Assembly: GCA_029834535.1 (NCBI GenBank)
Contig: JAQMWT010000238.1
Span: 62,001 to 126,000, forward strand
Source of the DNA: Chrysophaeum taylorii
Taxonomy: Eukaryota; Sar; Pelagophyceae; Pelagomonadales; Pelagomonadaceae
DNA length: 64,000 nucleotides
Direction: 5' to 3'
A program made the position numbers and the translations under genes. Below the pieces are notes generated by a model. The model was given only the letters and a program-made list of their open reading frames with translations. It was not told the DNA's origin and ran no database searches. This document shows, piece after piece, positions 43,614 through 63,307 of this stretch; position 1 is the first letter of the stretch, and every line of letters starts with the position of its first letter.

Positions 43614-43764
43614 TATCAGCCACCAAAGTAGCAGCAGCAGACGGGCGATAAATATATGGATACCTTTTATCGCCGGTTAGAGAGTTGAAGTGCAAGCGAA
43701 GTTCATTCTTCGGATTATGATCATTACCCTCTTCGAAACTAACGCCCGGGACGACGACCGACCA

Positions 43765-46344
43765 ATGAGCCTGTTCAAAGCCCGGAGCTGGTGGTCGACC
43801 AAAGTGGTCGAGGAGGAGTTCGGGGACGGGGGGCTCGCCGTAGACGGCGATGGACACGTGGTGACGGGCTCGCTCCAAGGCCGCGTCCGCGTCCACGCGC
43901 CCTCAACAACAACCCACGAGGCGACGACATTGTTGATCGAGGAGGACCTCGAGGCCCCCGTCTTGGCGGTGGAATTTGGCCGGCTCAACCAGACGAGCGT
44001 CGCGCTCGCCGTGCTCCACCCCCGCAAGCTCTGCGTGTTCGGCGTCGAGCAGCGCCGCGACCACCACGAATTGGTCGCGCTCTACTCTCACAAGCTCGGG
44101 CCCGACCATTTTAGCGCGTACGGCATGTGCGTCGGCGGCTTTGGAGGCCAACGCGGCGGAAACCGCGACATGATCCTCGTGCAGAGCCTGGACTGCCGGG
44201 TGGTCGTCTTCGACCAAGACGCCCAAGTTCTGACGCGTCGCCTCGCCGACTGCCTGCTTCCCGGGCCCGTCTGCTACTCGCCCGCCTCCGACAGCCTCGT
44301 CGCCCGGACTTCGGCCCTCGAACTCCTGAGCTACAAGTACGACGCTTTCGTCGCGAGCGACGACGACCAAGTTCCCGTCGTCGTCAAGGGCATCACCGCG
44401 CGCCGAGCGATGGCCGCCGACTGGACGTTGGACGTGGGCGAGATGGTGGTCGACATACGGTCTGCGAAAAAACTCAAGCTCGTGGTCGCCCTCGGCGAAC
44501 GCAGCCTCTTCGTCGTCGTCTCGGCAAGTGGCGCGCTTCTCGCGCATCGCCTCCTCGAGTTCGAACCGGTGGCAATCTGCACCTACGATCGCTCGCCGGA
44601 CTCTGAGGCCCTCGTCGTCGGGGGCCTCGACGGCAGGCTCGCAATTTTCCAGCTCCCCGACTGCCGCACGCTTTGGGTCGCGAGGCCCGCGCACGCAGAC
44701 CCCCCCGTCGCCATCCAGGTCTGCGACCTCCCGGACAACAAGCCCGGCATGCTCGCGGTCCTCGACGTCGCCGGCCGCGCGAGTCTCCAGTACCTCGGCA
44801 CGGAGCCGACGAGGGACGTCGCCGTCGCCGCGCCCTCGACCGAGCGCTACAAGGACCTCGTCCAGGAGATGCGTCGCCTCAAAGGAAAACTCAAAACCAT
44901 TAAGACGCCGCCGCCGCCGCCGCCGTCGCCGTCAGAGAAGACTTCGGCTCGAAGAAGAAGAAGAAGAAGAAGAAGAAGAAGAGGAAGCCTCCTGTCGATT
45001 CGCGCGGAGGTTTCTATCGACGAAAACGAAAGGCCGCTCGACGACGAAGAAGACCTCGCATTGGTGAGGATTCCGGCCGTCCACGAGGAGTACCCCGAAA
45101 CGGCGCCCGTCGAAGAGTCCTTGCTGAGCGCGACGGCCAGGGTCTGGGTGTCGTGCGGCGAGGCCCTAGACGCGACCGCGACGCTCGCGGCCCCCGCGTG
45201 GGTCTACTGCGAAGCCCCGGCGCGCGCGTGCCGGGTCGCCGGCACTCCGCGACTCGTCGAGATGGTCATGTACGCCACCGCAAAACCGCCGGCCTCGATG
45301 ACGGCGCGCGTCACGGCAACAGCGCCCCAGCGCGGCGTCGCTTCGACCTTTCGGCTCCCGTTAAACCTCGTTTGTAGGCTGCTGGTCCCGCCGACTCGCG
45401 AAGCCAAATACAAACTCACGCTCGACACCGATCGCGAGGCCGTATCCCTCGGGCTCCTGTTTGTCGACGCCTGCCGCCGCGCGAACCTCGACCCCGCCGA
45501 CGCCGCGACTGCCGTGTCTTTCGAGTTCTGGTTCCGCGCGGAAAACGACAACGCCGCTAAGGCGACCGTCCTCGCGTCAAAGAAAAAGGGGAGTTATCGA
45601 GTCCAGGCGACGGCCGTCCCGGCGCTCTGGCTCGTCGCCGACGAGCTCCGGAGACGCGTCGAAAACTACTGGGACGAGGTCCTCGTCTCGTTCAACGACG
45701 ACCTCCCGCTGACTGACGTTTACGCGGCCGTAGACGCCCACCACTCCGCCCGCGCTAGAGTCCGCGAGGCCGAATCCAGACTCAACGACGCGACCCACGA
45801 GCTCCGCGTCCTCGAGAAGCGCATCTTGGTCCGCTTCAAGGACTCGCGCCCGGCGCCCCTCCACCACCTCGACACCCTCCTCGACCAATCCTCCCAGCGC
45901 GTCCTCCAATTGGCGACCAAAGTCCAGAAAGCGCAGGCCGACCGCGACCGGGCCGCCACAATCCTGAGCGCCTCGCTCGGGCTCTTCTTGTTGCTCTGCG
46001 ACCTCCGTTTCTCCCTCGATCCCCGCCAGTCGGCCGTCCTCGCCTCCCACTTTAATCCCGACGTCGACGCCTGGAACAACACTGCCCTCGACGACTCTCG
46101 CGCCGGATGGGAGGAACTCACGGACGCCTCCCTCACCTTCTTCCTCAAGACGGCCCTTTCCACAAAAAAAAACGTCGCTGCCCTCCAAGCGCCCCAGACC
46201 CTCGCCTTTCCCCCGACCACCGACAAGCTAAAAAAGCACATCGCCATGGTCTGTGACCGCCTCGAGCGCGGCGCGAGACCCAAGACCCACCACGACCAGA
46301 CGCCCCATGCAACAACAAAAGAAGATGACCAAAATATCCTATAG
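43765..46344 (+). CDS. BBS9: BBS9 / PTHB1, BBSome subunit
   Basis: The BBSome is the coat that moves membrane proteins in and out of cilia, and BBS9 is its central scaffold. The 859-residue product matches the family: it begins MSLFKARSWWSTK, the hallmark BBS9 start, followed by an N-terminal beta-propeller (VDGDGHVVTGSLQGRVRVHAP, LVQSLDCRVVVFDQDAQ, FEPVAICTYDRSPDSEALVV). Beyond a low-complexity basic linker it has the GAE-like domain, platform and helical C terminus of PTHB1. Length is close to animal BBS9 (about 890). A GAA/AGA repeat inserts a run of about 12 arginines in the linker. The frame is open upstream to 43690, but the conserved start sets 43765. It shows that the organism builds cilia. 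Confidence 0.95.
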   Translation: MSLFKARSWWSTKVVEEEFGDGGLAVDGDGHVVTGSLQGRVRVHAPSTTTHEATTLLIEEDLEAPVLAVEFGRLNQTSVALAVLHPRKLCVFGVEQRRDHHELVALYSHKLGPDHFSAYGMCVGGFGGQRGGNRDMILVQSLDCRVVVFDQDAQVLTRRLADCLLPGPVCYSPASDSLVARTSALELLSYKYDAFVASDDDQVPVVVKGITARRAMAADWTLDVGEMVVDIRSAKKLKLVVALGERSLFVVVSASGALLAHRLLEFEPVAICTYDRSPDSEALVVGGLDGRLAIFQLPDCRTLWVARPAHADPPVAIQVCDLPDNKPGMLAVLDVAGRASLQYLGTEPTRDVAVAAPSTERYKDLVQEMRRLKGKLKTIKTPPPPPPSPSEKTSARRRRRRRRRRRGSLLSIRAEVSIDENERPLDDEEDLALVRIPAVHEEYPETAPVEESLLSATARVWVSCGEALDATATLAAPAWVYCEAPARACRVAGTPRLVEMVMYATAKPPASMTARVTATAPQRGVASTFRLPLNLVCRLLVPPTREAKYKLTLDTDREAVSLGLLFVDACRRANLDPADAATAVSFEFWFRAENDNAAKATVLASKKKGSYRVQATAVPALWLVADELRRRVENYWDEVLVSFNDDLPLTDVYAAVDAHHSARARVREAESRLNDATHELRVLEKRILVRFKDSRPAPLHHLDTLLDQSSQRVLQLATKVQKAQADRDRAATILSASLGLFLLLCDLRFSLDPRQSAVLASHFNPDVDAWNNTALDDSRAGWEELTDASLTFFLKTALSTKKNVAALQAPQTLAFPPTTDKLKKHIAMVCDRLERGARPKTHHDQTPHATTKEDDQNIL

Positions 46345-46422
46345 GTGTTGTTCCAAAATCCGGGGATCCTTTTATTTTTGAAAAAGCTCCCGTCACCTTT
46401 AGGATTTTTGAAAGGGCGATCG

Positions 46423-48912
46423 ATGGGCGACGACCAAGGCATCGGGAGCAGAGGGACGTCCGAGTCGACCAGAAACACGCAGGCCAACCACGAGCGCATC
46501 TTCGGCAAGTTCTTGGCGTGGGCGGTGGAGCGCGGGCACTACGGCGAGGACTTGTGTACCGACATCGCGGCCATCGACGAGGCCAAAGCGACGGAACGGA
46601 GGTTATACGTTAGCTGAATGCGAAGTACGTGGTGGATGATTACACTATCGAGCTGGGAAGAAAGAACGCGGGCCAGCGGCTCCGCATTGGCCCCGCGACC
46701 AAAATTACCTCGGCGTCGTCGTCGCGAACTTCTTCTCCATCAAGTACGAGGCGATCGGCTCGGCGGAGACCTAGCTCTTCTTCACCTGCCTCGACCGCGA
46801 CTCCAACACGGACTCTGCCATCTGGTGGCGGGGCGTTAGAACGAACGTCCGGCGCGAGATCTTCATCCGCACCATCGACTCCGGCGAGGAGCCAGATCAG
46901 TCCCCTGAGCCAGATCAGTCCCCTTCACCTCTGTCCCTCAGACGTCGAGGAGATCGTCGAGGCCTGCGCCAAGGCCGACACTGCCGAGGCTGCCAGGCGC
47001 ATGTACACGATCACCGTCGCCAACCAGGTTACCGGCCGCAGCGCCGAGGCCGCGACGATCAATGGCGACGGCCTCTCCTGGGACCCCCCGCGCTTGAAGA
47101 TGTTGTTCGGCGACATCTGGCAAGTCAAGACGTCGAAGCTCGAGGTGTGCGCCTTGTTCGCCGGCAACGACCAGTACTGCGTCTTCTTCCTGAACTAGGG
47201 CGACAACTTTGCGCTCTGAACCGCCCCGCTGCATCCGAGGACGACTGCGTCGGCTGGCTACTGCCCGAGCTGAAGGATGTCGACAAGCCAGGCGAGAAGA
47301 TCGGGAGCTTCCTCGAGGCCCTTCTGCCTCGTCGTCGTGGTGGTGCCGCTGGCTACGCCGACTTCGCCATCGATACCCTCCCTAAAACGACATCTGCGCC
47401 GGTAGCTTCCGGCCCGGCGCCATCAACTTGCTCGCGTCGAAAATGCCCGAGTGCTTTGTCGCGCGCGTCGTGACGGGCCACGACAATACCAGTCTCAGCG
47501 CCCTTTACAACTACCTCGACCCCGAGCGAGCCCTCCTCATGCCCGGCGTCGTCGTCATGGCTGGCTACGACGCGCAGCCGTGGACCAATCTCGGGAAAGG
47601 CCCCGTCCCCGCCGACTTCGAGCACCTCTGTGCGCTCGTCGACCGCGCGGACTTAGACCGCATGATTGACAAGCTCTTCTTCATCCACGATATCGTCGGC
47701 CCATACCATCGAGGCGGTTCCCTTCGGCCAGCGATTGAGGCCGCGTTCGCAAGCATCATCATGTACTATGAGGACCGAGAGCGGCGCGGCGAGATGCGGC
47801 GAGTCGGCAGCAAGCTACGCGCCTGCTAAATTGCCACCTTCGACCACAGAGCCGCGGACCCGGAAGCCGACGCGACATTCCGTGACTGGAGCAAGCCCCT
47901 CCGCGGCAAGTTCCAGCAGTCCGACAACTTGCACCTCACGGCACGGGCGGCCTCGGGCGAGATTTGCAGCAGCCCATCGTCCAGGCCATAACCAGGCTAA
48001 TGGGCGTTGTTGGGAGTCAGGAGCGGAAAATCGCCGACCTGCAGGATGCCTTGGCGACGTCGCGCCTGGAGATGGCGAACTTGAAGAACACGGTTTCGAA
48101 CATATCCAAGTCAGTGGCGGCGGCGGAGGCGGCGGCGGCGGCGCCGGCAATATCGAGAGCGCATGCGGGCGCGGTGGCAGCGGACTCGCGGCTGGCGTGG
48201 ATGCTGCAGGAGACAATGCCGATGCGCCCGTGCTCCCGCTCCGCATCGCCCGGCTTCAAATGTTCGACCGGTGACACCTCGCGCTTTTCTCATGCCCATG
48301 CGGGGGCCATCGACGGCGACAGTCGAGTCGATTGCGGGCGCGAGTACGCCCGAATTCTTCGTGCGCTGCGTGTGGCTTGGTGGCAGCATCCCAGCAAACT
48401 TGAAGAGCCAGGAGAAGTCCCGCGCACAGCAGGTGTTCAGCTGGTTCAATGACATGGCCACGTTAAAAGAAAGGGAGTCGCTGATGCGGACGATGGGCAA
48501 TGACGAGGCGACTCGTCGAAGCTGGCTCTGGCGACAAAGCTCGACAGTCTCATCCAGGATCGTTTCGGGAGCGCGTATCGTCGAGACTTGGGCATTGATG
48601 TGCCGACGCAACTTCTATTTTACGACAAGAAGGGCAAGAAGCGGAAGCGCCAGACCATATGGAGGTTGGCAGCATCTGCGAGCGGTTGGAGCAAAACGCT
48701 GAAAACGAGCTCGAGAGAGCGCGAGCTCAAAGACGCGTTAAATCTCGCGGACTTCCAGGACTTCCGGGCACAGGGCGCGCCGCGTCGCATGCTGGCTGCG
48801 CCCGCTCCAGAGCCGCGGCGCTCCCCTCAGCGTCTTCCCACGTCGGAGTCGAGCCCCTGTCCGAGCCCTTGCTAACCGTAATCGCGCGTTTAGTAAGAGG
48901 CGTTGGTTGCCT
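46423..48912 (+). mobile_element. tyrosine-recombinase (Crypton-like) transposon relic
   Basis: Pieces in different plus-strand frames assemble into one decayed ORF. They are: a head (46423-46617, KFLAWAVERGHYGEDLC), an internal DNA-binding region (VDDYTIELGRKNAGQRLRIG), the recombinase catalytic region (46938-47829), and a coiled coil (47964 onward, QAITRLMGVVGSQERKIADL). A C-terminal basic domain (about 48440-48660, TKLDSL and FYDKKGKKRKR) ends it. Frameshifts and stops occur near 46616, 46772, 47197, 47216 and 47390. Its 3' 220 bases recur at 36855-37080. Cryptons and related YR elements encode a tyrosine recombinase plus a DNA-binding domain. Confidence 0.6.
46629..47829 (+). pseudogene. 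tyrosine recombinase catalytic region, frame-broken
   Basis: VTGRSAEAATINGDGLSWD gives the first catalytic Arg (codon 47037-47039). WQVKTSKLEVC fits the beta-hairpin Lys. The last part, in another frame, reads GSFRPGAINLLASKMPECF (second Arg, but Gly where HxxR would have His) and VVTGHDNTSLSALYNYLDP. That stretch carries the GH motif (His codon 47479-47481) and the candidate nucleophile Tyr at 47506 or 47512. The order R...K...R...H...Y is that of tyrosine recombinases. At least three frame breaks lie inside. Confidence 0.6.
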
Positions 48913-49002
48913 TGTCCGCGCACTTGCCCACCCGGTGTGGGCCGCCGAGCACGGGGGACTCGTGGAAATCTGGCGGAGCCCGAGCCCCGCCGCCGGCCGG
49001 GA

Positions 49003-49081
49003 GCCAAAAACCCGGGCTCCGTCCGGGTTTTTGGCCGACCCCCGGGATGATTCATTTTCGGTTGTACGACAACAACCGAAA
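49003..49081. repeat. two adjacent hairpins directly before the NPHP4 start
   Basis: GCCAAAAACCCGG (49003-49015) and CCGGGTTTTTGGC (49023-49035) form a perfect 13-bp hairpin with a 7-base loop. A second inverted repeat, TTTCGGTTGT (49056-49065) / ACAACCGAAA (49072-49081), runs into the A of the NPHP4 ATG. They may be transposon-end remnants or regulatory hairpins. Confidence 0.85.
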
Positions 49082-51829
49082 TGGCGGGTCTTCGTCGGAC
49101 GACCGGGTTGACGAAGCGCAAGGTAAAGAGCGAGCGGCGGCGACGGCGATGGCAGGCGTTTTCGCGGCGGCGGCGGCGGGTCGCGGTCGAGGAGGGGCCG
49201 CACATCGCGACGCGGCTGATCCCTGTGTGCCTGAGGTTGCGGCGGAGTGAGGGCTGGTCCGCGCCTCCCGGCGTGAAGAAGCACATGATCTGCGTGTCGC
49301 TGAGCTTCTTCGACTGCGCGAGCCGGCGGTTCTTCGGCGGAACCTGGGTGAGCCGCATGGTCGAGCCAAAGGCGGAATTCGAGGAGTTGGCGTACTGGTG
49401 CACTCGGGTCGACGACCCGGCGTGCGTGCTGGTGGTGGAGCTCGTCGCCTGCGAGGTGGTCGAGGGGCGGTGCGCCGCGCAGTACGGGTGCGGCTGGACA
49501 ATCCTCCGGTTATTTGGGGAGGGCAGCGACACGCGCGTCGACGCGGCGACGGACGACGAAAATACGAAAAAATTTATCGCGTGCGACGTTTTCGACGGAA
49601 CTCCCCGACGCCTCGCGACGGCCGCCGAGGCCTTGGGGGTGACGAGGTCGTTGCCAATGCCCTCGGCCCGGGAGCTCGCGGCCGCCGCCGGGAGCTCGCC
49701 CGCGTGTTCGATAGAGTATCGGCTGCGGCGGCACGACGAGCTAAGCCGCGTCGCTCATCTCCTCGCGGAAGACGAGGTCGTCGGGGCTAACGAAATGGTG
49801 CCCGGCCTCGCGACCGGCGTGCTCGGGCGGGTTGAGAGGCCCCCCAAGCTCGCGGCCTCGGTGGTCCTGGAGATCCGCGAGCTGCGCGTCAAGGTGCGCG
49901 ACCGCGCGCGCCTCGAGCAGACGCTCGCGCGATACGCGGGATCCAAGATCGTCGCGCGGCGCGTCGCGGTCGGCCTCCACAACGGCCGCGCCCTCACGCT
50001 CCGGGATCGGGCGGACGCCGTGGACGGCTGGAAGCGCATGGACTTGACGCGCGCCGATGGCGACGTGATGGCGATTTCTGAAGACGCGACGACAGAGCTT
50101 CCGGGTTTCGCTCGTCACCGGCTCGTCGCGCTCGTGGTCGCCCTCGAGTACGAGCTCGAGAGTGCGAAGAAGCGCGTCTTTCTCGGGGCCCAGGCCTACG
50201 TGCCCTTCGACGGCCGACGACTCAGGTTGCGGACGGGCAGGGATTTGAATTACGTCGAGCTAGAGTTAGAGCATCCTCGCGAAGATCTCGCCGCGGACGC
50301 TCTCGTCTTCCCGCCCCGCGACGCCGCGGGCGACGGCGACTTCGAGGGTCTCGAGGGAAAAAACAATTTGGGGCACAACACTCTCGTCGGCCTCCAGCTC
50401 CGGGCGCGCGATGGCGCCCGAAATCTCGACGACGAGACCCCCGACCGCGACTCGGACGACTCTTCTTCGGGCGACGACGAGTCTCCGTATCTCGACGACA
50501 ATCTCGAGCCCGCCCCCAGCGAGGACAGCAGCGCCGTGGTGGATCCTTATCCAAGGAGACCGAGGCATCAATCTTCGACGACGAGGAGGAGGAGGGGTCA
50601 GCACAATATTCCCGCGGATGATGACGACTCGACGTCCACCTCGACGCCGCCGCCGCCCGAGCGGATCTCTCCTCCTCCTCCTCGTCGAGAAACAACAGAG
50701 ACGATGATGAGAGCCGGTCTCGGGAGCATCCGCCGCGAGACGGAGGAGAGGCTCTGGCCATCCCGGAGCTCGCTCCTCGCCCGCACGCTCGAGGCACCGA
50801 TTCACCGCGCCGAGGGAGGCGGGGTCGTCGCGCCGAGATGCGACGACAACAACAACAACAACAAGGTTGTCGTCGTGGTCAAGAATACCGCGACGCCGTT
50901 GTCGCGGGCCGACCGCGCGAGGCTGTCGCGGCAGGGCGTCGCCAACGTCGACGAGACCCCGCACCCACAAAGCTACGATCTCAGTCTCGAGGCGACGGAC
51001 CCCCTCGGACGCCACGAAATCACGATTCAGTTCGCGGCCCTTCGAAAGACGAGCGACGACGCACAGTTCCCGAGGTCCGTGTACTTCACCTACCAATTCT
51101 ACACCCACCCCCCCACGCGCACCGAGCGTCTCCGGGTGTTAAGGGGCGACGAATTGGTTGCACCGCTCGTCCGGTCTCGCGACGAGCCCGGCCTCGCGCT
51201 CAAGTATGTCGTCGACACGACCAACGCTCGGCCCAACGAGGCCGAGCATTTGTTCGAGTACCTCGCTAAGAAGACCCTGCGCGTCGACGTCTGGGACGCC
51301 GAGAGCCGCCTCGGCCTCGGCCAGCTCAAAGTGCCCCTCGACGGACTCCTGCGCCAGCGAGCTCCGGTAGCCAAGGCCGCCCACGAGTATCCCGTCCTCC
51401 CGATCGAGGCTTCGGTGGACCAGCACCTCATCGACGGCGGATTGCGGACCGACCGCCTTGACTACCTCTACGTTCAGGTCGTCATGTGCAACTACGGCGA
51501 GCGCGGGCAGCGACGAGACGAAAAGGAGACCACCACGGTACAGGACGGCAAAGGAGACTACTCCGCGGACGACGACGACGACGACGACGACGACGTGTCC
51601 GGCTGGCGGAACAAGAGCCTCGACGCCGCCGAGCGCAGCAAGGCGATGTTGACGGCGCTCCAGGGCCGCGATAGCCACGGCCGACCACGGAACGACGCCG
51701 AAGCCCTGGGCGCCTTGGCCAAGGCACGCCAGCCCAAGCACCGCGTGAGGGCCAAGCCTCTGACGACGGCGTGCGAGACGTCGTCGACGCTGCTCGCGGC
51801 GTCGCGGAGGCCTGCCGTTTCCACTCCCG

Positions 51830-51860
<31 letters not shown>

Positions 51861-54800
51861 GGAGACGGCGGTGACGTACGACGAGGTGCAGCAGCTGGTC
51901 CGGCGGTTCCGCGACGAGCACGGGCGCGTCAAGTACAAGGGGCCACTCCTGGCGCTCCTGGAGGCGCCCGACGCGCGGGCGGTCGAAAGGCGGCTGATGC
52001 GCGTGGTGAAGCGCGCCGAGGAAAGCGGGACGCCACTCGAGCGCGTGTTCGGGTCGTTCGACACGAACCGCGACGGGACCGTGTCGCTCGCGGAGCTCGA
52101 GGAGGCGTTGCGGGGGCTCGGGTGCCCCGCCGGCGCGGCGGCCGGGCTGCTGCGGCGGTTCGACGCCGACGGCGACGGCCGCATCTCGCTAAAGGAGTTC
52201 GTGGCGCGCGTGAAGAGGGGGGAGCGGCAAAAGTCTTCTTCTTCCTCGCCGTCGTTGACGGCGTTCGAGGCACGCGTCAAGGCGATGCTCCTCAAGGCGG
52301 AGGAGCTCGGGGCGTCCGTGGTCGACGCGTTCCGGCAGTTCGACGCGGACGACGACGGGACGTTGACGGAGGCCGAGGTCGGCGCGGCCTTCCGGTCGCT
52401 CGACCAGAGGCTGTCGGCGTCGGAAGTGCGAAAACTCTTCAGGCACCTCGACAAGGACGGGAGCGGCGGCATCGAGGTCTCGGAGTTGCTCGCGTTCGCG
52501 GGCCGCGACGCGACGGACCACCTCGAGATGAAGCTCCGGGTGCTCCTCCAAGCCGCGGAGCGCAAGGGGATCGCCGTGGCCGACGTGTTCGCGGCGTGGG
52601 ATGCCGACGGCTCGGGAACGCTCAGTCGCGTCGAGCTCGAGAGGGGACTCAAAGCGCTCTCTTCCACCAAAGGAGGAGGAGACCGCGAGAGCTTCGAGGC
52701 GTTGCTGAACCGGCTCGACGCCGACCGGTCGGGCGAGATCCAAGTCGAGGAGCTCTACGCGTTTGCAAAACTGGACTACGCTGCGTTTGTCGAGGCGCGG
52801 CTCCGGCAAATTCTGGTCGTCGCCGCGCGCGACTACGACGTGTCTCTGGACGCGGTTTTTCGCGAATGGGACTCGGACGGCTCGGGGACAATTTCGGCCG
52901 AAGAACTCGAGCGGGGATTGTTGTCGCTCAGGCCGTGGGGGCGCCTCGACGAGCGCGAGGTCGAGACGCTCCTCCGGCGCATCCACGTCACGACGCTCCG
53001 GGAATTCGTGGAATTCGCCGGCGGCGATTACTCGGCCCTCGTCGCCGAGCGGCTGCGGCGCGTGCTCGCGCGGGCCGAAACGAAGGGTACCTCTCTGGAC
53101 GCGGCCTTCGCGCAGTGGGATGCCGACGACTCGGGGGAAATTTCGCGCTCGGAACTCGTGCAGGGCCTGCGCGCGCTCGGCTTCGACGACATTCTAGAAG
53201 AAGAAGAAGACGACGGCGGCGGCGTGATCGCCGAGAGGTACGCGCTCGGCGACCTCTACGCCTTCATGGGCCGCGACCCCGTGGTGGTGTTGGAAGCCAA
53301 GCTGCGGCGCGTGATCCACACCTCGGGGATCTCGGCGAGCGAGGCCTTCAAGCACTTCGACAAGAACGGCGACGGCGCGATCGCCGAGCCCGAGCTCGCC
53401 GCCGGGCTTCGAGAACTTCCCGGTTTCGACGGCGTCTCGGACGCCGAGGCCCGCAGCCTGGCGAGCTTGTTTGGAAAGGAGACCATCTCCGTGCAAGACT
53501 TCGAGAGGCAGGTCGGCACCAAGGCGACGGCCGACGCCGAGGCCGCCGCGCTCTCGTCGTTGAGGGAAGCGATGACGAGAGGAGGAGCCAAAAAAAAATT
53601 CGCGACGTTTCGGGGACTCGCGCGAGCGGTGAAACGGAGGTGTCCCGAGAATCTCGACGGCCTTACCCAGGTGTTCCGCGACGTGGGTGCCGAGCCGCCC
53701 GGGGACGAGGCAACCCTCGGGATTCTTAAGCTTCGATTCGAGAACTCGCCGAAAGCGTTTCTCGCGTTCTGCGAACGCGCCGGCGTCGCGACACCAAAGG
53801 AGATTGCCCAGTCGCGCGGCGAGCCCCAGCTCGAAGCGCCGTCGACTCCAGCGAGCGCCGCCCTCGCGCTCGACAAGCTACGGGGACTCGACGCCGACGC
53901 CTTCCGGGTTCTCGACGTCGACGGCAGCGGCGCGTTGAGCGCCGACGAGTTGCGCGAGGGGCTCGGCCTCACCAAGGCCGACGCCCGGCGCGTCGTCGAG
54001 GCCCTCGACACCGATGGCAACGGCGCCGTCGACCTCGACGAGTTGCTGCGCTTCTCTTCGCCTCCTGACGATCCCTCTGAGAAAGTCGCCGCGAAGATTC
54101 GCCAAGTCCTCCGCCGAAAATTCTCCAATTCTTCTTCCTTTCGGGACTACTTAAATCAGCAGCACCGCGACGTCAATCTCGCGGCAGCCCTCGATGTTGC
54201 CACCGGCTTATTCCGCCACGTCTCGCGCGTCGACGTGGAAAAAGTGTTGCCCAGCACGCGAGAGGCCCTTTTCGATTTCCTCGACGGTAATAAATCATCA
54301 TCATCATCGATACGCCGCCTCGACGCGACCAAAGAGAAGCTCCGCGCGATCCTGCTCCGCGCCGAGGAGATGGGCACCTCGCTCGAGGAATGCTTCGGGA
54401 CGCTCGACGAAAACAAAGACGGCACCATCGCGGTGCCCGAATTGCGCCGCGGTCTCGAGCGTCTCGGCCTCGACTTCGACCAAGTTCGCGACCTCTGCGC
54501 TAGTTTTGACGGCCCCATCGATCTCCGCGAGTTCCTGCGCTTCGTGCGCGGCGAAGAAGAAGAAGACGAAGAAGAAGAAGAAGAAAAGGACGAGGAGCTA
54601 GTGCTGCCGCAGTACGAGTTCTCGCTCGACCCCGACGCGCGAGTCGTCGAGAAGAAGGTTCGACGAGCGGCGCGCCAACTCCAGGCTAGAGGCGTCGACG
54701 TGCGCGCGCTGCTCGCGCAATACGACCCCCAAGACGACGGCGCGATAGCGAGATCCGACTTCGTCCACGTCCTCATGCAGCTCGGCCTCTCGCTTCTCGA

Positions 54801-56475
54801 GGTCCAGCCCAAGATTCTTCTTGGAGACGAATGCTCGACGGTGCGAAGACGACAACTCGCGCAGCTCGCGAGGGTCAGGCGCGGTGGTGCCGCCGCGGCG
54901 CCGAGACCTCTCGTCGCGCCTCCCCTCGATTACGGCAACAACAACAACGACGACGAACTGGCTCTGGTCAAGTGGTACCGCGAGGGCGCGAAACGCGACA
55001 TGGTCAAGTCGATGCTGAGGAAGGCGATGGTTACGACGGTCACGATTCACCCGAGTTTCGGCGAGACTGCGTGGTTCGAGCACGCGGTCACGAATCCGCT
55101 CGACCACGCCGAGCGCGTGCTCATCGAGATCGAGACCGACGTCGTCCTGAGTCAAGGCACGCTACGGGTTATCACGTCCTCCGAAGAGTGGGCCCGCTTG
55201 CGCCGACTAAGATCCCCCGCGTGCGGCGACGTCGGCCGAAAAAATATCGAGCCAGACATGATCGACGCGACGGGCGAGGTGCCCAACATCATGCTCATGC
55301 CCGCGGAGACCGTTCGCGTGCCCTTCGCATTCCTGCTCCTCGAGCCACCCACGCCCGACGCGAGGTTCGGCCGCGACGACAAACCCTTCGGATCCGCGAC
55401 CGCGCGCTTCGTTTCCGCCGCGGGCTTCGCGGTGTCCGTGCTTCGCGTCGAGACTCGCGTCCATCCGTGCGTCGTCGACCGCACGCTCCGGTTCTACCAG
55501 CCCGAGGGCGAGATCCTCAAGAGAGCTATAAGGGTTGCCGCGCCCCCCAGAGCAGCGCGACGCCGCCACCACCACCGCCGCGGAATGCTCGAGGCGGCGA
55601 TCGGGCCGCAAATCATCGACGAAGAAGAAAACGGCGACGACCTGTTCGTGCACTGCGTCGCGCGAGGCGACACGACCGACGTCTCCGTCACGTGGCGCGC
55701 TCTGGATCACGGCGGCGGCCACGAGGTGCTCGTAAAGTGCGACGGCGTCGCGCGCTTTCCCGCCGTCGGCGAGTTTTACGTTTTGTTGTTTCGAGACAGG
55801 TTCTGCGCGCGGCTCGCCGAGCTCTGGCACTGCGTCGTTCACTCTCGCTTGCGCGCCGACGCCAACGGCCTCGCCGGCCAGTCGATGGGCGTCGACCTCG
55901 TCGTCAACGGCGACGCGGCACCGCGCACCGTCCGGGCGTACTGCGGCGACGCGACGGGCGGACCTCTCGAGGCTTTCACGACCTTCGACCCGCCGACCCA
56001 TTTCCGCCTCGTGCCGCGCGCTCACAACAAGTTCGCCGTCCATTACCGCCCGACTATTCCGGGATCTGCCAAACTCCACGTCCACCTCGTCGACGTCGAC
56101 ACCAGAGACCTCGTCGCCGCCTGGCTCCTGACGGCCGTCGCCGCCTCGCCCGCCATCACGAAAACCTACGACGTCGAGCTCCCCCTCGACAGACCCGCCA
56201 CCAAGCGCATCCCCTACCGCAACCCCTGGAATAAACCCAAGGCCCTCGCGCTCGTCTCGTCCGACCCTGCCCTCGTCCGACCCCGCGTCCATCCCGCCGT
56301 CCACATTCCGCCCAACGGCCTCGAATACCTCCGCCTCTACTTCGCCCCCATCACCCGCCCGGGCCTCGTCCAGGCCTTCCTCTACCTCAACGACGCACAA
56401 ACTGACCAGTCGGAGGCCGTCTTCCTCCTCCGCCTCCTCGCCTCCTCGAGGCAACAACAACCGTGCGATGCCTAG
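49081..56475 (+). CDS. NPHP4: nephrocystin-4 (NPHP4) homologue with an inserted EF-hand array
   Basis: NPHP4 sits in the ciliary transition zone and controls which proteins enter the cilium. This 2464-residue frame has the NPHP4 N-terminal part (CVSLSFFDCASRRFFGGTWV, CGWTILRLFG, the GTPRRL block, VGLHNGRALTLRDR). A second C2-like part follows (about 615-800: YFTYQFYTHPPTRTERL, LRVDVWDAESRLGLGQLKVP). The C-terminal Ig-like repeats (about 1960-2464) include HPSFGETAWFEHAVTNP, LHVHLVDVDTRDLVAAWLL and KRIPYRNPWNKPKALALVSS. Between residues about 915 and 1890 lies an array of about 13 EF-hand loops (DTNRDGTVSLAE, DADGDGRISLKE, DKDGSGGIEVSE and so on) plus degenerate partners, absent from animal NPHP4 (about 1430 residues). 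No stop, frameshift or intron breaks the frame. Poly-Gln (about residue 917) opens the array. Confidence 0.9.
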
Positions 56476-57139
56476 TCAGTCTCCCCTGTGATTTCCTAGT
56501 CAATCAATTCCAATCAATCAATCGTCGGCGTGAACACACTTGCGCTGCGTAGAATGCGCCACCTGCAGTTGGGGAGACGAAAATATACTTTAATTGGGAA
56601 ATACATGTCGTCTGGCGCAGCATAGATCGATCTACGACCACAGCCTCTTCTGAGGCTGCTTCGAAACTTCTTATTGTTGCCTGCGACATCGCCGCCGCCG
56701 CCGCCGCCGCCTTGAGATGCTAAAAGGTGGTCAACCTCCTTTTTTCTTCCCAGAACGCCCTGGACCGGCGAACCTCTGGCCCGGAAGCGAAGCGAGCTAG
56801 GAGTCAGACAGTCGATCAAAATCATTTTTCGCCCGATTGGTCGAGGGTGCCGCCGGGCGCGCACTGCTGCACGATACCTTCGTCGTGCGAGCATGGGCTA
56901 TTTTTGTCGGTCACTTGAGTACGCACACGCGAAAATCCCTCGACCATGTCATAAAATATTCCACTTGTCGTTCAATGTCGGCCATTTACACCTTTCTTAA
57001 TATATTGGCGCCGGGGCCCTCATCGTCGTCTGACTTCTTCGGATGATGATGATCTCTTCGAAGAGATAGATAGATACCTTCGACTTTGTAAAGTGTTATT
57101 ATTATTGCCACCACCGCCATGGTCTTTAAATGTCGACTG
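56476..57139. other. intergenic spacer between convergent genes
   Basis: Holds AATC repeats just after the NPHP4 stop, a GCC run (about 56691-56713) and A/T-rich sequence. No gene recognised. Confidence 0.5.
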
Positions 57140-58371
57140 CTAAGAGGGGGGTGTGGGGAGCATGAAGGATGTGGGTGGTTTGTGCGCCATGGTCTTCCAC
57201 TTGAAAAGGTTAATTATTAGAGTCACCCTAGATCCGCAGTCGAAGGGGGGGCCGTGGTGCTCCCAATTGTCAACGATGTCGACGATAGCGCCGGCCGTGC
57301 CGGCGAGAACGATGAGAATAGTGAGGGCTATGTGAAAGTTGGCCTCCCGGCGGCGGTGTTCTTCCTTGGGGCGTGCGTGTTTGTAGAGGAGAGCCGGGAT
57401 GGCGAAGTTGGGGGGGGCGGAGGCGAAGGCCCCGATCAGAGAGACGAGGTCGGGGAAGAACGGAACGGCATTGGCGACGAACCAGGCTGACGCCGTGATT
57501 GCGGACGTCAAGGCGAGCCAGCAGCGATTCGAGTCCTCGAGGTCGAGGTGGCTCTGGAGGGTTTTGGCGAGGGGCTGGAGGTTGATCGCGTAGGAAACGG
57601 ATACGTGCGCGAAGAGGCACGCGCCCGCCCGCGGGTCTCCGTAGCCACTCGTCGCTGGAAATAGCGTCGAGGAGAAAGGCTGGTGGGCGGGGGACTGAGC
57701 GTCGGGATCGCGCTGCTCGCGTCGCACGTTCAGGAGCAGTTTTTTTGCGTTCCCCATCGCGAAGACGCACGAGCCGACAGCCGCGCTCGCGCGGAGCGCC
57801 GCGCGCCACCGGGGCGCGCCGAGGTGCGGCGGGAGCCAGGCGGGGTCGTAGGGCCAATGCCTCGCCGCCAGGCACGAGCCCAGCACGACGAAGACGCTCG
57901 AGATCGACGCGAGGCTCGGCCACCTCAGCTTTGTCATCGTGCGGGTCGCTTGCGCGAGCGCGAGTACCGACGCCGCGGCAGCAAAGCTCGAGAGCGCCGT
58001 GCACGAGGCGCCGACGGCGAGCTCGAGGCCGTTTGACATGACGAGCGCGTACTGTCCCAGAACCAGAAACAAGTTCGAGTACCACGCCGCCAGGATGATC
58101 GCCTTGGTCGTCGCTCCGCACCCCGCGCCGAGCTCGCAAAAGTCGCGCGCACGTCCCCCTCGCGCGGCCTCGATCACCAGCGTGCCGGCGCTCAAGTTGA
58201 GCACAAAGTTCGTCACACCATCAACGCACCGAACCTCCCGATACCGAGGGTCCACGCGTCCCCCGGTAGCGCGAGGACACCAGTCCCCACGCAGTCCGCC
58301 ACGAGCAGCACCGCACCGCCCAACACGCCGTAGCCCCCCCGAGACTCGGACACGAGAGCATACTCCGACAT
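57140..58371 (-). CDS. AAAP-family amino-acid transporter with an internal frame break
   Basis: The family (SLC38/AVT type) moves amino acids across plasma or vacuolar membranes with 11 helices. The conserved first helix (GGYGVLGGAVLLVADCVGTG, then GVLALPGDAW) is read from the ATG at 58371, but that frame stops at TGA 58215-58213. The rest, from TNFVLNLSAGTLVIEA through SYAINLQPLAKTLQ to PPNFAIPALLYKH, is in another frame that continues to 57140. The two join at a GTGTG stretch, where removing two bases or rereading one would restore frame. No intron-sized gap exists. Either a recent mutation, a sequencing error or a programmed shift explains it. The C-terminal helices look intact. Confidence 0.7.
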
Positions 58372-60737
58372 GACCACCTTCGAGTCTGGCGCGCACACAT
58401 GGGACCATCGCATCAATCCGGGTAAGGGAAACGTGGTTGGTCTCATCGGGGGCCAAAACACAAACGGGGACTAAAACCATGCATTAAACGTCAACTTGGC
58501 TTTTGCTCCAAAAGTAAAGCGTCTCGGTACGCAACGTGGCGGCACTTTACATGTTGCATCATGATGTTGACGACGACGACGGGCTCTCTTTCTGCGGCAA
58601 GCGACTGGTCGTTCGGTATCCTATGGCTCTGATAAGTTGCGGGGATTCGGTGTAGGCACCAGGGCAGAAGAGGCGGCGATCTCGGGGCTCCTGTTTTGGC
58701 TTGTGGTCTACGAAACCGCGCTATAAAGCGAGCGCCAAGTTCCTGTCGTACGGCTCGAGCCTCGTTTCCAGGCACTCGGGCATCACCTCTGGCGCTTTAC
58801 ACCCGTCGATTCCAGCGTCCTACTCTATCGCTGCCGGAGTAGTACTTCGCCAAGTGTTCGGAACATGTCCTTATCATTCACAGACTCAGTGTCGCTTCTT
58901 TCGCGCGCTCCTTGCGCTCAATTTTAGCTCGAACCGAAAAGGCATGTACCCCATGTTCTTCTTCTTCTTCTTCTTCTTCATTTTCCTCTTCTTTCGAATC
59001 TCCACGCCCGTATCAAACAAACTCATCCTACTAATTAATGCCTAGACGATGGGTGCTATCTACAGAGTGCCGATGGCATTGTTATATGCCGAGAGCTCGT
59101 AGCTTCACGCCGCTTTTGGGGGGCTCGTTTTTTGTTGTCGGGGTGGGAAGGGAGTGTTTACTCCCGTGTTGTTGCGGTCCTCGCCACCTCGCTGCGGTCA
59201 ACGAAGCTCGGACCCTCCCCCTGACCTCTCCTATTGCCTCCTGTGTGCGCTTCTCGCCAGTTGTCTCTTTTTTGCTCTTCGATTTCTAGTGTGGGTGTCG
59301 AGATTCAACGAAGTTGTTCAGTGGCCCCGATGATGATGACGACGACGACGCTGTGGGGGCGGCGGCTATACCGGAGATTGGGCGTGGTGGGGCTGGGCTA
59401 TGAGGGTGGCAGGGCTGATTTCCATGCCGGGTTTCATGCAACTCTACGGTATGTGGAAGTTGGATGCCCCCCAGATTATGATTGCTCGCGTCTTCAAGTG
59501 GGACGACAGAGATACGCGGGCAGTCCCCGACTGTTGGTGATGTATCGGAAGGGCGTGCTCCGAGCTGCGTCGCCTCGCCCCTTGCTCGTCATAGGCACCA
59601 CGGCCGCCGAGTCCGCCCCGAGTAAATTCCTCCCCCCGAGGATGTCTGTCGGGGTAGGTGCCCACCAGGCTCGCCTGGATCAGGTAAAACTCGGCTCGAA
59701 ATGCAGTAGGAATAGTAACGTTTAGAGTTGCGGAGAGAGGGGCCGATTGTGCTGACGACGATGATCGGTGGAGTGCTGTTTGCGTGCCTGGTGTGACGAC
59801 GACACAACGCGACTACGGTAGCTCGTCGGATGCGTATTTGCGTCAAATAGGACGGGGTCTAGAGGTGCAGCATGGGCTGGTGGTCAAGAGGCGGCTCAAT
59901 GTTTGGTAATGCACGAGGAGGCGAATTGAACGGCGTTCCGTAATCAGACGATTTTTTTTTGCGCGGCTTCTCGTTGGTCGTACGGATTCAACCTTGAAAG
60001 TTGCTTGGCTGGGTAGAACTTGGTGAAAAGCCGAGTTTTGAGTTGGGACGAGTTTGGTGGGATTAGGGCCGGCGCGGCAGGGCTTTGGTTGGGAAAAAAA
60101 AAAAAAAAGTTAGAAAAGGGGGGGGGAGGAGCGCGGCTGGTAACTCCGACGAGCTCGTTTAGCTTCCCCTGCGACTCTCGCGGCATACGGCGTGGCGCAG
60201 ACGATCACTCTCGCGTTCGTCCTCGAGCGCGCCAATCGGGTCCTCGTCGCCGGCGTGCGCTTCTTCTAGACGATCATCACGCCGCTCTGCAATTGCAATA
60301 CGCTTGGCCTCGCGTCGACGCTCGAGCAGCATCGCCGTATCCTCGTCGCTGGCGGCAAGAGCTTCACGACGAGCGGCTCGCAATCGCCCCATCTTGTCGC
60401 GACGGACCGCATGTTCTTCGCGCTCGAGAAAAGCGATCGTCTCGAACACGCCACAAGCGCTTCCACGCATCAACAGCGCGCTTGTACACTTTCTCTTCGC
60501 CATTCCACTCCTGGGCGAGGACACACTCGGAGTACCAGTTCCTTTTCAAAGGAACTTGCCCCTCTTTCGTTTTCCCGCACGATCTCCCGCCTCGCCGAGC
60601 GCCGGACGGTTTGTCTCGTCATCCCGGGCCGCGCGGCGGTCCGCCGTCGCTCTCCACGATGGGGCGCGCCACGTGACGCACATTGAAGAACTCTTCCCGT
60701 GTATTGCGGTTCCAACCCTTAAACCCCAAAAAATAAG
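58372..60737. other. 2.4-kb intergenic region, nothing convincing
   Basis: Holds a TTC run (about 58953-58980) and homopolymers (A15 near 60099, G9 near 60119). A minus-strand frame at 60524-60159 is helical and basic (LEREEHAVRRDKMGRLRAAR), but it has no domain and may be a Gag-like fragment. IBA57 promoter DNA must lie just before 60738, where ATAAG precedes the ATG. Confidence 0.4.
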
Positions 60738-61618: not shown

Positions 61619-63202
61619 TTAGACGTCGGCGATGCGGATGAGTTCGTGCAGAAAGGAAGTCCTGCTGCGCTTACGACGAGGTGGTGGTGGTGGTGGTGGT
61701 GGTGTTTCGACGATTTGCGGCGGCGACGTGGACTTTTTTCGGATGCCGACCTCGTAGGTGACGGGGATGTCGAAGGCCGGCGGCGGCACGCCAGCGAGTT
61801 TCGTACCATCATCATCATCATCATCATCATCAAAGGGGGGCGACAGTTTGGTCGTCGTCGTCGTCTTCTTCTTGGCGGGGATGGCATAAAAATCGTAAGT
61901 CTCTCGGGCCGTCACGGGAACTAGTTCGTCGAAGGCGATGTCGTAGTCGCCGTCGTCGTCCGCGAGGGCAGAGGCCGGCGGCACTTCGTCGAAGGCTATC
62001 TCAGTGGTGAGGGCCTCGGGAATGTCCGAGGAGACGGAGGCGAGGGCGTCGAGGGCGAAGAAGCCGAGATCGAGCTCGCCGAGGGGCTGGGGGAGGTCGG
62101 TGGAAATAACGAGGAGCGAAGGGTCGATCGCTGTGCAGCGGCAGAGGAGGGCGTCGTTGGGGACGAGAGGCGGAAGGACGGCGATACGAGCGTTGCCGTC
62201 GCGGCGCGCGAGGATGGACGACTCGTGAATGACGCACCGGCCGTAGGGTTCGTCATCGGTGCCGCCGAACCAGCCTATTTTCGATCTGACGAGGTGAATG
62301 ACGATGTCGGAGTTGGCGTCGCCCGTCTCGACGACGACGTCCTCGTCCCACCCCACTTCCCCGCGCAGCGGGGTCGCCGGGCGCGTCCGGCCGCTGGTCG
62401 ACCGGGGCGTGGTCGCGCAGCAGTAGAGCGGGTCGTTCCCGACAGCCCCCTTGACCCTTCGGAGCGTGAGAATGATCTTGGAGGCGCGGGGTCGCCGGGC
62501 GCGCCTGTACTCGAGGAGCCACGCGACCGCCGCCTGTTCGTCCGACGGGTCGCGGACGAGCGGAGGGACGCCGAAGGACCTCTCGGCAGCGCGCAGGGCC
62601 GTATCGAGGGGGGGGTGGTCCTCCCCGAAACGCGCGAGACCGTCGACCGCGACGAGAGCCAGAAAGGCGCTTCCGTCGCGAAACTTCGGCTGGAGCTCGG
62701 AAAGCTTTGAAATCCCGAGGACTCTGCCCGCGCGCGCGAGGACCCACGCGTAGAGCTCGTCCTTGATGGCCGCGTACGAGGCGGGGGGGCGTCCCAGACT
62801 CGTCATGAGGGTCCATATGAGTCCGAAGATACACGTCAAATTGCCGTCGTGAACGTCCGAGGGACTGATGTTCACGAGCGAAACGCCCAGCTCCTCGAGG
62901 GCGGAGAACAGCACGCTCAGCTTCTCGAGCTGGTGGATTTTTGTTGGTCTCGTGTCGAACACCACGTCGGTCACGCGCTTTTTGAGGGACCCGCGGCTCA
63001 GGACCTCGATCAAGTTGAACAACACCACGCCGTTCACGAGATCGCGCCGCAGGTTCTCTACCTTGGGGACGTGCCGGCCCCGAAGCACGCCGTTGATCCA
63101 CATGCAGTACAACCGTTCCTGCCGCTTGAGCCAACTCGCGCTGTCGCTGCGACGGAGCTGGGGGGGCTTGCGCCCGCTCCAGTCGCGCTCGTAGAGGCCC
63201 AT
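61619..63202 (-). CDS. tandem calponin-homology (CH) domain protein
   Basis: The 527-residue product begins with a pair of CH domains (about 20-240). CH1 has LYCMWINGVLRGRHVPKVEN, LRRDLVNGVVLFNLIEVLS and IFGLIWTLM. CH2 has LYAWVLARAGRVLGI, FRDGSAFLALVAVD and HPPLDTALRAAERSFGVPP. Paired CH domains bind F-actin in alpha-actinin, filamin and plastin families. The second half lacks a recognised domain and ends in a Pro- and Asp-rich region (VETPPPPPPPPRRKR). The frame is open to 63493, but that overlaps the next gene; the ATG at 63202 is the sensible start. Ser/Asp runs come from trinucleotide repeats. Confidence 0.8.
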   Translation of the reverse strand: MGLYERDWSGRKPPQLRRSDSASWLKRQERLYCMWINGVLRGRHVPKVENLRRDLVNGVVLFNLIEVLSRGSLKKRVTDVVFDTRPTKIHQLEKLSVLFSALEELGVSLVNISPSDVHDGNLTCIFGLIWTLMTSLGRPPASYAAIKDELYAWVLARAGRVLGISKLSELQPKFRDGSAFLALVAVDGLARFGEDHPPLDTALRAAERSFGVPPLVRDPSDEQAAVAWLLEYRRARRPRASKIILTLRRVKGAVGNDPLYCCATTPRSTSGRTRPATPLRGEVGWDEDVVVETGDANSDIVIHLVRSKIGWFGGTDDEPYGRCVIHESSILARRDGNARIAVLPPLVPNDALLCRCTAIDPSLLVISTDLPQPLGELDLGFFALDALASVSSDIPEALTTEIAFDEVPPASALADDDGDYDIAFDELVPVTARETYDFYAIPAKKKTTTTTKLSPPFDDDDDDDDGTKLAGVPPPAFDIPVTYEVGIRKKSTSPPQIVETPPPPPPPPRRKRSRTSFLHELIRIADV

Positions 63203-63307
63203 ATTTATGACAACAACAAGAAGAAGAAGAATACAACAACCCCATTCACCACCATCATCACCCAATATAAAAAAGTTCTGGCGCCGGCGCAAGCGTTGTG
63301 TCAAAAA

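Follow-up and report, generated by a model that had tools for sequence, protein, structure and literature searches.

NPHP4 (nephrocystin-4) serves as a scaffold in the transition zone of cilia, where its partners include NPHP1 and RPGRIP1L. How Ca2+ at the flagellar base is read out into a change of gate, beat or shedding is an unsettled question, for which a core gate protein with a dozen canonical EF-hands in at least two algal classes provides a direct test case. In Paramecium, according to PMC7093003, NPHP4 is required for efficient Ca2+-triggered deciliation, and cells depleted of CEP290, RPGRIP1L or NPHP4 are impaired in shedding their cilia in response to Ca2+, the defect after depletion being suggested to lie in Ca2+ influx, upstream of a sensor. 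In the same paper, Paramecium RPGRIP1L stripped of its EF-hands still supported deciliation, indicating that EF-hands on a protein of the NPHP module can be unneeded for this response. For Chlamydomonas it names a protein linked to Ca2+/calmodulin and a TRP channel, located at the transition zone or immediately above it, as being involved (PMC7093003). Among the open-licence PMC papers listed by literature searches, most of them for NPHP4 or nephrocystin, no title or abstract opening dealt with EF-hands in NPHP4.

The DNA analysed here (the window) is a stretch of 64,000 nt from Chrysophaeum taylorii (GCA_029834535.1, JAQMWT010000238.1, positions 62,001-126,000 of the forward strand). One gene in the window encodes a protein in which, judged by sequence, NPHP4 halves almost certainly flank an EF-hand array. 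The gene and its NPHP4-like parts are as follows, where P0021 is an EF-free NPHP4-like protein of 1413 aa.

49081..56475, + strand: whole gene of the EF-hand-bearing NPHP4 homologue, 2464 aa, ATG start, a single stop-free frame
49279..50163, + strand: conserved NPHP4 block near the N-terminus, residues 67-361, containing SLSFFDCASRRFFGGTW, from alignments with P0021 and hand-entered human NPHP4
50902..51444, + strand: second of the conserved NPHP4 blocks, residues 608-788, containing the motifs SVYFTYQFY and VDVWDAES, from alignments with P0021 and hand-entered human NPHP4
54829..56472, + strand: C-terminal NPHP4 half, residues 1917-2464, a predicted row of beta-sandwich domains, from alignments with P0021 and hand-entered human NPHP4 and from the structure model

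The single unbroken frame described in an earlier note on this DNA is open throughout; shuffling the surrounding 14 kb 100 times gave no stop-free run longer than 466 codons, compared with 2464 for the gene. Codon-position composition is even, with GC3 at 0.74-0.91 across 13 blocks. Upstream, at 49048, the frame has a stop, and thereafter the sole in-frame ATG is 49081, a start supported by relatives P0004 and P0008, which have the same N-terminal block (LTKRxxKxERRxRRWQxFxRRRR) as the window protein.

Three collinear NPHP4-like blocks (N-terminal, middle and C-terminal) surround the array in the same order as in P0021, which bears out the proposal that NPHP4 can be read on both sides of it. 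The human NPHP4 sequence used for comparison was entered by hand and is taken to be correct, and the NPHP4 name leans partly on it; P0021 is 45% identical to this hand-entered sequence over 1452 columns. In the N-terminal block, which we take to be C2-like, residues 67-357 of the window protein were 25% identical to P0021 63-357 (24-sequence set, E 8e-13), and residues 74-361 were 26% identical to the hand-entered human sequence. The corresponding values were 32% (608-783 against P0021 599-789, E 3e-20) and 34% (629-788 against hand-entered human) for the second block, and 25% (1917-2453 against P0021 903-1411, E 5e-36) and 29% (hand-entered human) for the C-terminal half. The structure model of this half had a mean pLDDT of 79.7 and a pTM of 0.63, and in Foldseek its ranks 1-18 were chains of the axonemal central apparatus (E from 2e-21, with TM-scores of only 0.14-0.22), followed by immunoglobulin chains.

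In the Pfam scan, run on a model set without PF26190, no NPHP4 family model matched the window protein, P0021 or P0023 (a second EF-free NPHP4-like protein), and P0021 had no Pfam family whatever and no loop-pattern match. The search-database annotation assigned PF26186, PF26187, PF26189, PF26190 and PF26015 both to the window protein and to P0021, and a PDB search with the EF-free NPHP4 returned two weak spectrin matches alone (E 0.06 and 0.14). On sequence grounds, and with a family name drawn partly from the hand-entered human sequence, the window gene is taken to be the alga's NPHP4, a newly recognised ochrophyte variant. The earlier description of NPHP4 as a protein of about 1430-1500 aa lacking EF-hands does not hold for this protein, with its 2464 aa and 12 canonical loops; these are treated as features of the variant because the three blocks and the motifs bracketing the array are kept.

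The array and its boundaries are composed of the following features.

51736..51762, + strand: left boundary motif KHRVRAKPL (residues 886-894); visual comparison gave matches in EF-bearing relatives and looser ones in EF-free NPHP4
51868..52032, + strand: opening degenerate EF-like cap, residues 930-984, TYDEV...LLxLLxxP (alignment A1, nine sequences selected for having the motif, mean column identity 64%)
52036..54465, + strand: EF-hand array, hands 1-12, residues 986-1795, from Pfam and loop patterns
52060, 52162, 52342, 52450, 52600, 52717, 52870, 53119, 53359, 53914, 54007 and 54406, + strand: starts of the canonical loops (residues 994, 1028, 1088, 1124, 1174, 1213, 1264, 1347, 1427, 1612, 1643 and 1776)
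54613..54813, + strand: closing degenerate EF-like cap, residues 1845-1911, YEFSxDP...EKK.RR...RSDF (alignment A2, nine sequences selected for having the motif, mean column identity 63%)
54958..54993, + strand: right boundary motif LALVKWYREGAK, residues 1960-1971, counterpart of LRLIEAYRERCK in EF-free P0021

The earlier note had counted 13 loops in roughly 950 residues and suggested an EF-hand Pfam scan. Thirteen is the number of EF-hand_6 matches in that scan, together with 12 EF-hand_1 matches and 8 stretches matching the EF-hand pair model (lowest E 2.7e-70), while the canonical loops number 12 by a pattern requiring D1, G6 and E12 and 11 of those by a PROSITE-like pattern. The length was approximately right but slightly short, the array measuring about 980 residues from cap to cap (930-1911, nt 51868-54813) and 1065 between the flanking motifs. 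In 1000 shuffles of the protein, the D1/G6/E12 pattern gave a mean of 0.01 loops and a maximum of 1. From their ligand residues, most of the 12 loops are predicted, with good confidence, to bind Ca2+.

Calmodulin-lobe-like pairs follow one another along the array, with degenerate EF-like caps at both ends. In the relatives, loops were about 38 residues apart inside a pair, the interval from one pair to the next being about 50-60 residues. Helix-loop-helix repeats were present in the predicted array model, the overall shape of which is not readable at its middling confidence (pLDDT 71, pTM 0.46).

The array sits between two motifs that are also present, by eye, in EF-free NPHP4, and the insertion point was identical in seven EF-bearing proteins. 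The central linker was 918-1173 residues long in these seven, and 68 and 91 residues in the two EF-free proteins that made up the comparison set (P0021 and P0023). The hand-entered human sequence aligned to both flanks and not within the array; together with the loop-free P0021, this agrees with the claim that the array is absent from animal-type NPHP4.

The search for the same architecture elsewhere, also suggested earlier, found 16 other NPHP4-EF proteins, 12 of them with NPHP4 sequence on both sides, plus a partial protein from Phaeothamnion. The relatives come from collections tagged lgn, ena, jgi, ncbi and eukprot. Not every one of the 16 counts as independent, since P0006, P0008 and P0010 all belong to one species, Aureococcus anophagefferens. 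The best local alignments with these three covered 34% of the query at 46% identity (P0006, SO694_00027156), 49% at 34% (P0008) and 29% at 37% (P0010), and that with the partial Phaeothamnion confervicola protein (P0011) covered 11% at 46%. At least two ochrophyte classes therefore have the order: Pelagophyceae, and also Phaeothamniophyceae, the latter through a partial protein with the array and the C-terminal half. As far as the sequences indicate, the architecture is no oddity of this one genome. The Aureococcus relatives are labelled 'Ca2-binding protein' (P0008 and P0010) or 'EF-hand domain-contain...', and NPHP4 appears in none of the relatives' source names shown; an EF-hand-bearing NPHP4 would account for proteins labelled merely 'Ca2-binding protein'.

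Array identity with P0003 (the nearest relative), P0002 and P0004 was 50, 47 and 47%, near that of the N-terminal (46, 49 and 46%) and C-terminal flanks (57, 55 and 54%), indicating that the array is under constraint in the closest clade. In this seven-protein clade most of the 12 loops were canonical at the same places; two second-of-pair loops are lost and a third half-lost in the window protein, all of them intact in P0003. Outside the closest clade the array lagged behind the flanks in conservation (array identity against N- and C-terminal flanks: P0018, 26% against 29 and 40%; P0022, 22% against 29 and 35%; P0019, 23% against 26 and 36%; P0020, 23% against 28 and 34%), and several sites were non-canonical or out of register. 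By the two patterns, the distant relatives P0014, P0019, P0009 and P0020 had 3/4, 3/5, 7/5 and 7/6 loops, respectively.

In the tree, branches were long and the EF-free proteins were joined with support of 49/84 and in 53% of 200 bootstrap trees; because this placement is poorly supported, a single gain of the array before the two ochrophyte classes parted is only plausible. Recent tandem expansion as the origin of the array was ruled out, since the eight delimited units are just 26-46% alike. Derivation from the EF-like tail of an RPGRIP1-type partner was unsupported, the similarity between tail and caps being weak and non-specific. Cap A2 scored 13.4 bits against the tail (best of 300 shuffles, 3.3), compared with 20.1 for a generic EF array protein, and cap A1 scored 4.5 against a best shuffle of 4.4. 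No Pfam EF-hand was found in the tail, which as a genome query matched itself only. The closing cap as query matched the window gene, a truncated copy on contig C56 and weak EF-like sequences, the best other match (E 2.7e-4) lying within the array itself.

From what is known of the family, we infer a transition-zone location for the window protein. In the reading preferred here, the EF-hand array, some 980 residues long, would have been inserted into the central linker of NPHP4, probably in a common ancestor of at least two ochrophyte classes, and kept since, linking the N-terminal half with the C-terminal half and its beta-sandwich domains as a Ca2+-responsive tether. Upon a rise of Ca2+ at the flagellar base, the lobes would take up the ion, shift in conformation and open clefts for targets; the loaded lobes could give the two NPHP4 halves a different spacing or stiffness, or different partners, and the altered halves would in turn tune a barrier or shedding response. 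Taken as a whole (architecture, origin and tether), the inserted Ca2+-sensing array in ochrophyte NPHP4 is just on the probable side. The regulated-tether role by itself is tentative, and a Ca2+ response in vivo with an effect on the gate is conjectural. The boldest form of the proposal is doubtful: that in ochrophyte algae Ca2+ is sensed by the transition-zone gate itself, its NPHP4 array having been gained once before the split of Pelagophyceae and Phaeothamniophyceae, so that flagellar Ca2+ would reset the barrier/shedding switch directly, without a separate calmodulin-type sensor.

The array might instead be a long rod, always loaded or indifferent to Ca2+, that lengthens NPHP4 to fit the ochrophyte transition zone, Ca2+ stabilising the fold without carrying a signal; EF-hand arrays in ciliary microtubules seem to play such a part. 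When the array profile was searched against the PDB, EFCAB6, which we take to be located inside ciliary doublet microtubules, came first (E 1e-35, some 465 profile positions, among the best 60 of 396 matches), and this makes a structural role a serious rival, although a somewhat unlikely one. Foldseek ranks 1-11 were likewise chains of doublet-microtubule assemblies (Tetrahymena, Leishmania and T. brucei, E 1e-12 to 2e-4), but TM-scores of 0.07-0.16 for the first ten indicate a common repeat type and not a common shape. Among the best 60 of 396 matches, EFCAB6 scored 125 bits, a calmodulin-calcineurin fusion 114, radial spoke protein 7 94 and calmodulins about 85, and the score of EFCAB6 is also raised by its length, which is far greater. 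Insert length is broadly kept in the seven proteins whereas canonical loops vary in number, and deletion of the EF-hands of Paramecium RPGRIP1L was without effect on deciliation (PMC7093003), both as expected of a spacer; a pure spacer, however, would have no need of the full ligand sets seen in 12 loops, most of them canonical in the closest clade.

Twelve canonical sites in one chain could also serve as a local buffer, absorbing Ca2+ at the flagellar base and sharpening the compartment boundary without conformational signalling, but neither the exact position within NPHP4 nor the conserved caps are needed for buffering, and this is very unlikely. It is equally improbable that the protein has departed from the transition zone and acts elsewhere, for example in coccoid cells without flagella. 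Aureococcus, the source of relative P0006, was described without a flagellated stage, but the paper also gives the suggestion of a cryptic flagellated stage, on the ground that many ciliary genes are kept (PMC4736243). The window protein's own genome holds two B9-C2 loci, an RPGRIP1-type C2-C2_1 gene and a weak CC2D2A-type match, and a BBS9/PTHB1 gene adjoins the NPHP4-EF gene; the B9, RPGRIP1-type and BBS9 genes speak against such a departure, and the whole group counts in favour of the preferred reading. As to an artefact of gene model or assembly (two joined genes or a chimeric contig), a genome search with the C-terminal half matched the window gene and the C56 copy only, with no EF-free second NPHP4 among the matches. 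The C56 copy carries a stop and frame changes and had no match to window 49.0-54.06 kb, so the NPHP4-EF locus is structurally uneven in the assembly. Against this stand the single frame of even composition, the shared insertion point, and the same order in relatives from several collections, by which the artefact was ruled out with only the slightest residual probability; the earlier judgement that gene-model fusion is unlikely is thereby upheld.

The proposed Ca2+-responsive NPHP4 can be placed beside five known systems. Like EFCAB6 it is long and rich in EF-hands, but the best EFCAB6 stretches listed span positions 980-1968 of the 2512-position profile, taken as the EF part, and no EFCAB6 match to the NPHP4 ends was found among the best 60 of 396. 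With calmodulin it shares paired EF-hands, calmodulins and calmodulin fusions making up the best 60 of 326 single-sequence PDB matches (E about 1e-13); calmodulin, however, is a free protein of four hands, whereas the window array has about eight fused pairs with wider gaps between them. Paramecium RPGRIP1L, with its C-terminal EF-hands, is likewise a transition-zone protein of the NPHP module with extra EF-hands, but it is a protein other than NPHP4 (PMC7093003). In the Aureococcus and Phaeothamnion proteins, NPHP4 sequence and array are arranged as in the window protein over whatever length each one covers, and the loop counts differ. Conventional NPHP4 shares the three collinear blocks over its full length and, by eye, both linker-bracketing motifs, and where P0021 and P0023 have a short EF-free linker, the window protein has 1065 residues with 12 canonical loops.

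The frame at 49081-56475 (+) is free of stops over 2464 residues, which confirms the single unbroken frame claimed in the earlier note. When the 14 kb around it were mononucleotide-shuffled 100 times, the longest stop-free run was 466 codons. GC3 ranged from 0.74 to 0.91 in 13 blocks along the frame and codon-position composition was even throughout, indicating that the middle of the frame appears coding just as its ends do. The start at 49081 is also sound, since P0004 and P0008, two proteins returned by similarity searches, share a basic N-terminal block beginning a few residues past the start of the window protein.

The 1413-residue P0021, an NPHP4-like protein lacking EF-hands, was collinear with the window protein in three blocks (24-sequence set):
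P0021 63-357 with window protein 67-357, E 8e-13
P0021 599-789 with window protein 608-783, E 3e-20
P0021 903-1411 with window protein 1917-2453, E 5e-36

P0021 was 45% identical over 1452 columns to a working version of the human NPHP4 sequence, which itself aligned with the window protein across those three blocks (E 9e-19, 8e-24 and 4e-46). The putative name NPHP4 rests mainly on these matches to P0021 and to this human sequence. The earlier reading of NPHP4 on both sides of the array is upheld by the collinear blocks flanking it. The Pfam copy scanned returned no NPHP4 family match. Five accessions common to the window protein and P0021 (PF26186, PF26187, PF26189, PF26190 and PF26015) were listed unnamed in the database's domain list. 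The C-terminal half was modelled as beta-sandwich domains in a row (pLDDT 79.7), and its Foldseek matches 1-18 were all axonemal central apparatus chains, with low TM-scores (0.14-0.22), followed by immunoglobulin chains.

For the array, Pfam detected 13 EF-hand_6, 12 EF-hand_1 and 8 EF-hand pair stretches, while one loop pattern gave 12 loops and a PROSITE-like one 11, so the count of 13 proposed earlier holds by EF-hand_6 but not by loop patterns. The 12-loop pattern averaged 0.01 hits per shuffle over 1000 shuffles of the window protein, with a maximum of 1. An EF-hand profile, partly circular because it was built from these very hands plus the hands of five relatives, scored the same 12 hands at 24-39 bits and a half-hand at residues 1810-1824 at 8 bits; in the EF-free P0021 and P0023 it gave no score above zero. 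In relatives, the two loops of a pair lie about 38 residues apart and neighbouring loops of different pairs about 50-60, a spacing cleanest in P0003 and P0022. Two second-of-pair loops kept in P0003 are lost in the window protein and a third is half-lost. Since P0003 has 17 loops by the pattern giving 12 in the window protein, the ancestor of this clade probably carried a larger array than the window protein has today. The degenerate EF-like stretches at the start and end of the array were well conserved, with mean column identities of 64% and 63%, respectively, in nine sequences each, picked for having the motif.

A (K/R)xVRAxPL-type motif precedes the array and an LALVxWYREGxK-type motif succeeds it. 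Both motifs, picked by eye, were present in all nine proteins in which they were sought, more loosely in the EF-free ones. They lie 68 (P0021) and 91 (P0023) residues apart without EF-hands, and 918, 968, 983, 1065, 1069, 1125 and 1173 residues apart in seven EF-bearing proteins including the window's, which places the array in the central linker, with the N-terminal half before it and the beta-sandwich half after it.

Three protein searches, with about 8000 candidates scored each, yielded 22 proteins in addition to that of the window. NPHP4 sequence and EF-hands were combined in 16 (P0002-P0012, P0014, P0018-P0020 and P0022), four carried EF-hands only (P0013, P0015-P0017), and two carried NPHP4 sequence without EF-hands (P0021, P0023). 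The array was flanked on both sides in 12 of the 16, with a short N-terminal piece in P0006; P0007 and P0011 lacked the N-terminal side, P0010 and P0012 the C-terminal side. P0018, P0020 and P0022, the distant relatives put through Pfam, were all confirmed to carry EF-hands. The same architecture, proposed earlier for a search in other algae, was found, and the named sources of these 16 proteins are Aureococcus anophagefferens (Pelagophyceae; P0006, P0008, P0010) and Phaeothamnion confervicola (Phaeothamniophyceae; P0011, partial), both classes being ochrophyte. Separately, canonical EF-hand loops filled nearly the entire length of P0013 (3777 residues, about 90 loops) and P0015 (1553 residues, 37 loops).

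In the C-terminal-half tree, the window protein and Aureococcus fell in a seven-member clade (support 100/100), outside which lay Phaeothamnion, P0018/P0009, P0014 and P0019/P0020/P0022. A pelagophyte-like host for the window is the likely reading. Array identity to P0003, P0002 and P0004 was 50, 47 and 47%, compared with 46, 49 and 46% over the first 900 residues and 57, 55 and 54% over the C-terminal half. To the distant P0018, P0022, P0019 and P0020, array identity was 26, 22, 23 and 23%, and both flanks were above it (N-terminal 26-29%, C-terminal 34-40%). Because of these identities, and since array units are 26-46% alike among themselves, the array is older than the close clade and has been kept in register inside it; beyond that clade it has drifted more than the rest of the protein.

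Other features of the window and of the genome are as follows:
43690-46344 (+), BBS9/PTHB1 gene, E 3.4e-76, four PTHB1 domains in order
15593-17809 (-), potassium-channel-like protein that combines an ion channel domain with cyclic-nucleotide-binding and ankyrin domains
61619-64000 (-), open frame with a calponin-homology domain, extending beyond the window
contig C56 34416-42945 (loci L017, L022), second NPHP4 copy, compared with window 46391-59011

The BBS9/PTHB1 and NPHP4 genes are neighbouring ciliary genes on one strand, the former 2.7 kb upstream. The channel layout resembles that of plant-type Shaker channels. The C-terminal part of the C56 copy showed 96% protein identity (90-100% when aligned as three segments lying in three frames), with a stop inside the match plus frame changes. 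Its DNA matched only 46391-48996 and 54060-59011 (six blocks, 92-96% identity), with no match to the window between 49.0 and 54.06 kb; it is either a truncated duplicate or a haplotype that has been rearranged. The same genome holds two B9-C2 loci, a weak CC2D2A-type match and an RPGRIP1-type gene whose domains are C2-C2_1 and C2. The RPGRIP1-type protein on contig C92 (L018, 2148-5525, +) ends in a tail reminiscent of the Paramecium RPGRIP1L EF tail; a profile picks out a single degenerate EF-hand-like unit there (13.4 bits), which Pfam does not recognise.

The ligand sets retained in the array favour real Ca2+ binding, which may carry a signal. We tentatively propose, as a possibility short of even odds, that the array would act as a Ca2+-responsive tether between the NPHP4 halves. 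NPHP4 is a transition-zone protein. In Chlamydomonas, the flagellar protein content of NPHP4 mutants is abnormal (PMC6070942); in Paramecium, Ca2+-triggered deciliation is impaired on NPHP4 depletion, for which the authors suggest a Ca2+ influx defect (PMC7093003). A mainly structural array, acting as a rod, is the competing and somewhat less probable reading, with EFCAB6 as the best PDB match of the array profile (E 1e-35), doublet-microtubule assembly chains as array Foldseek matches 1-11, and deciliation intact with Paramecium RPGRIP1L minus its EF-hands (PMC7093003) all speaking for it.

Searches of a collection of open-licence papers listed no title or abstract opening on EF-hands inside NPHP4, and on that account their presence within NPHP4 would be new; EF-hands on an NPHP-module protein are already known, with Paramecium RPGRIP1L as the precedent (PMC7093003).
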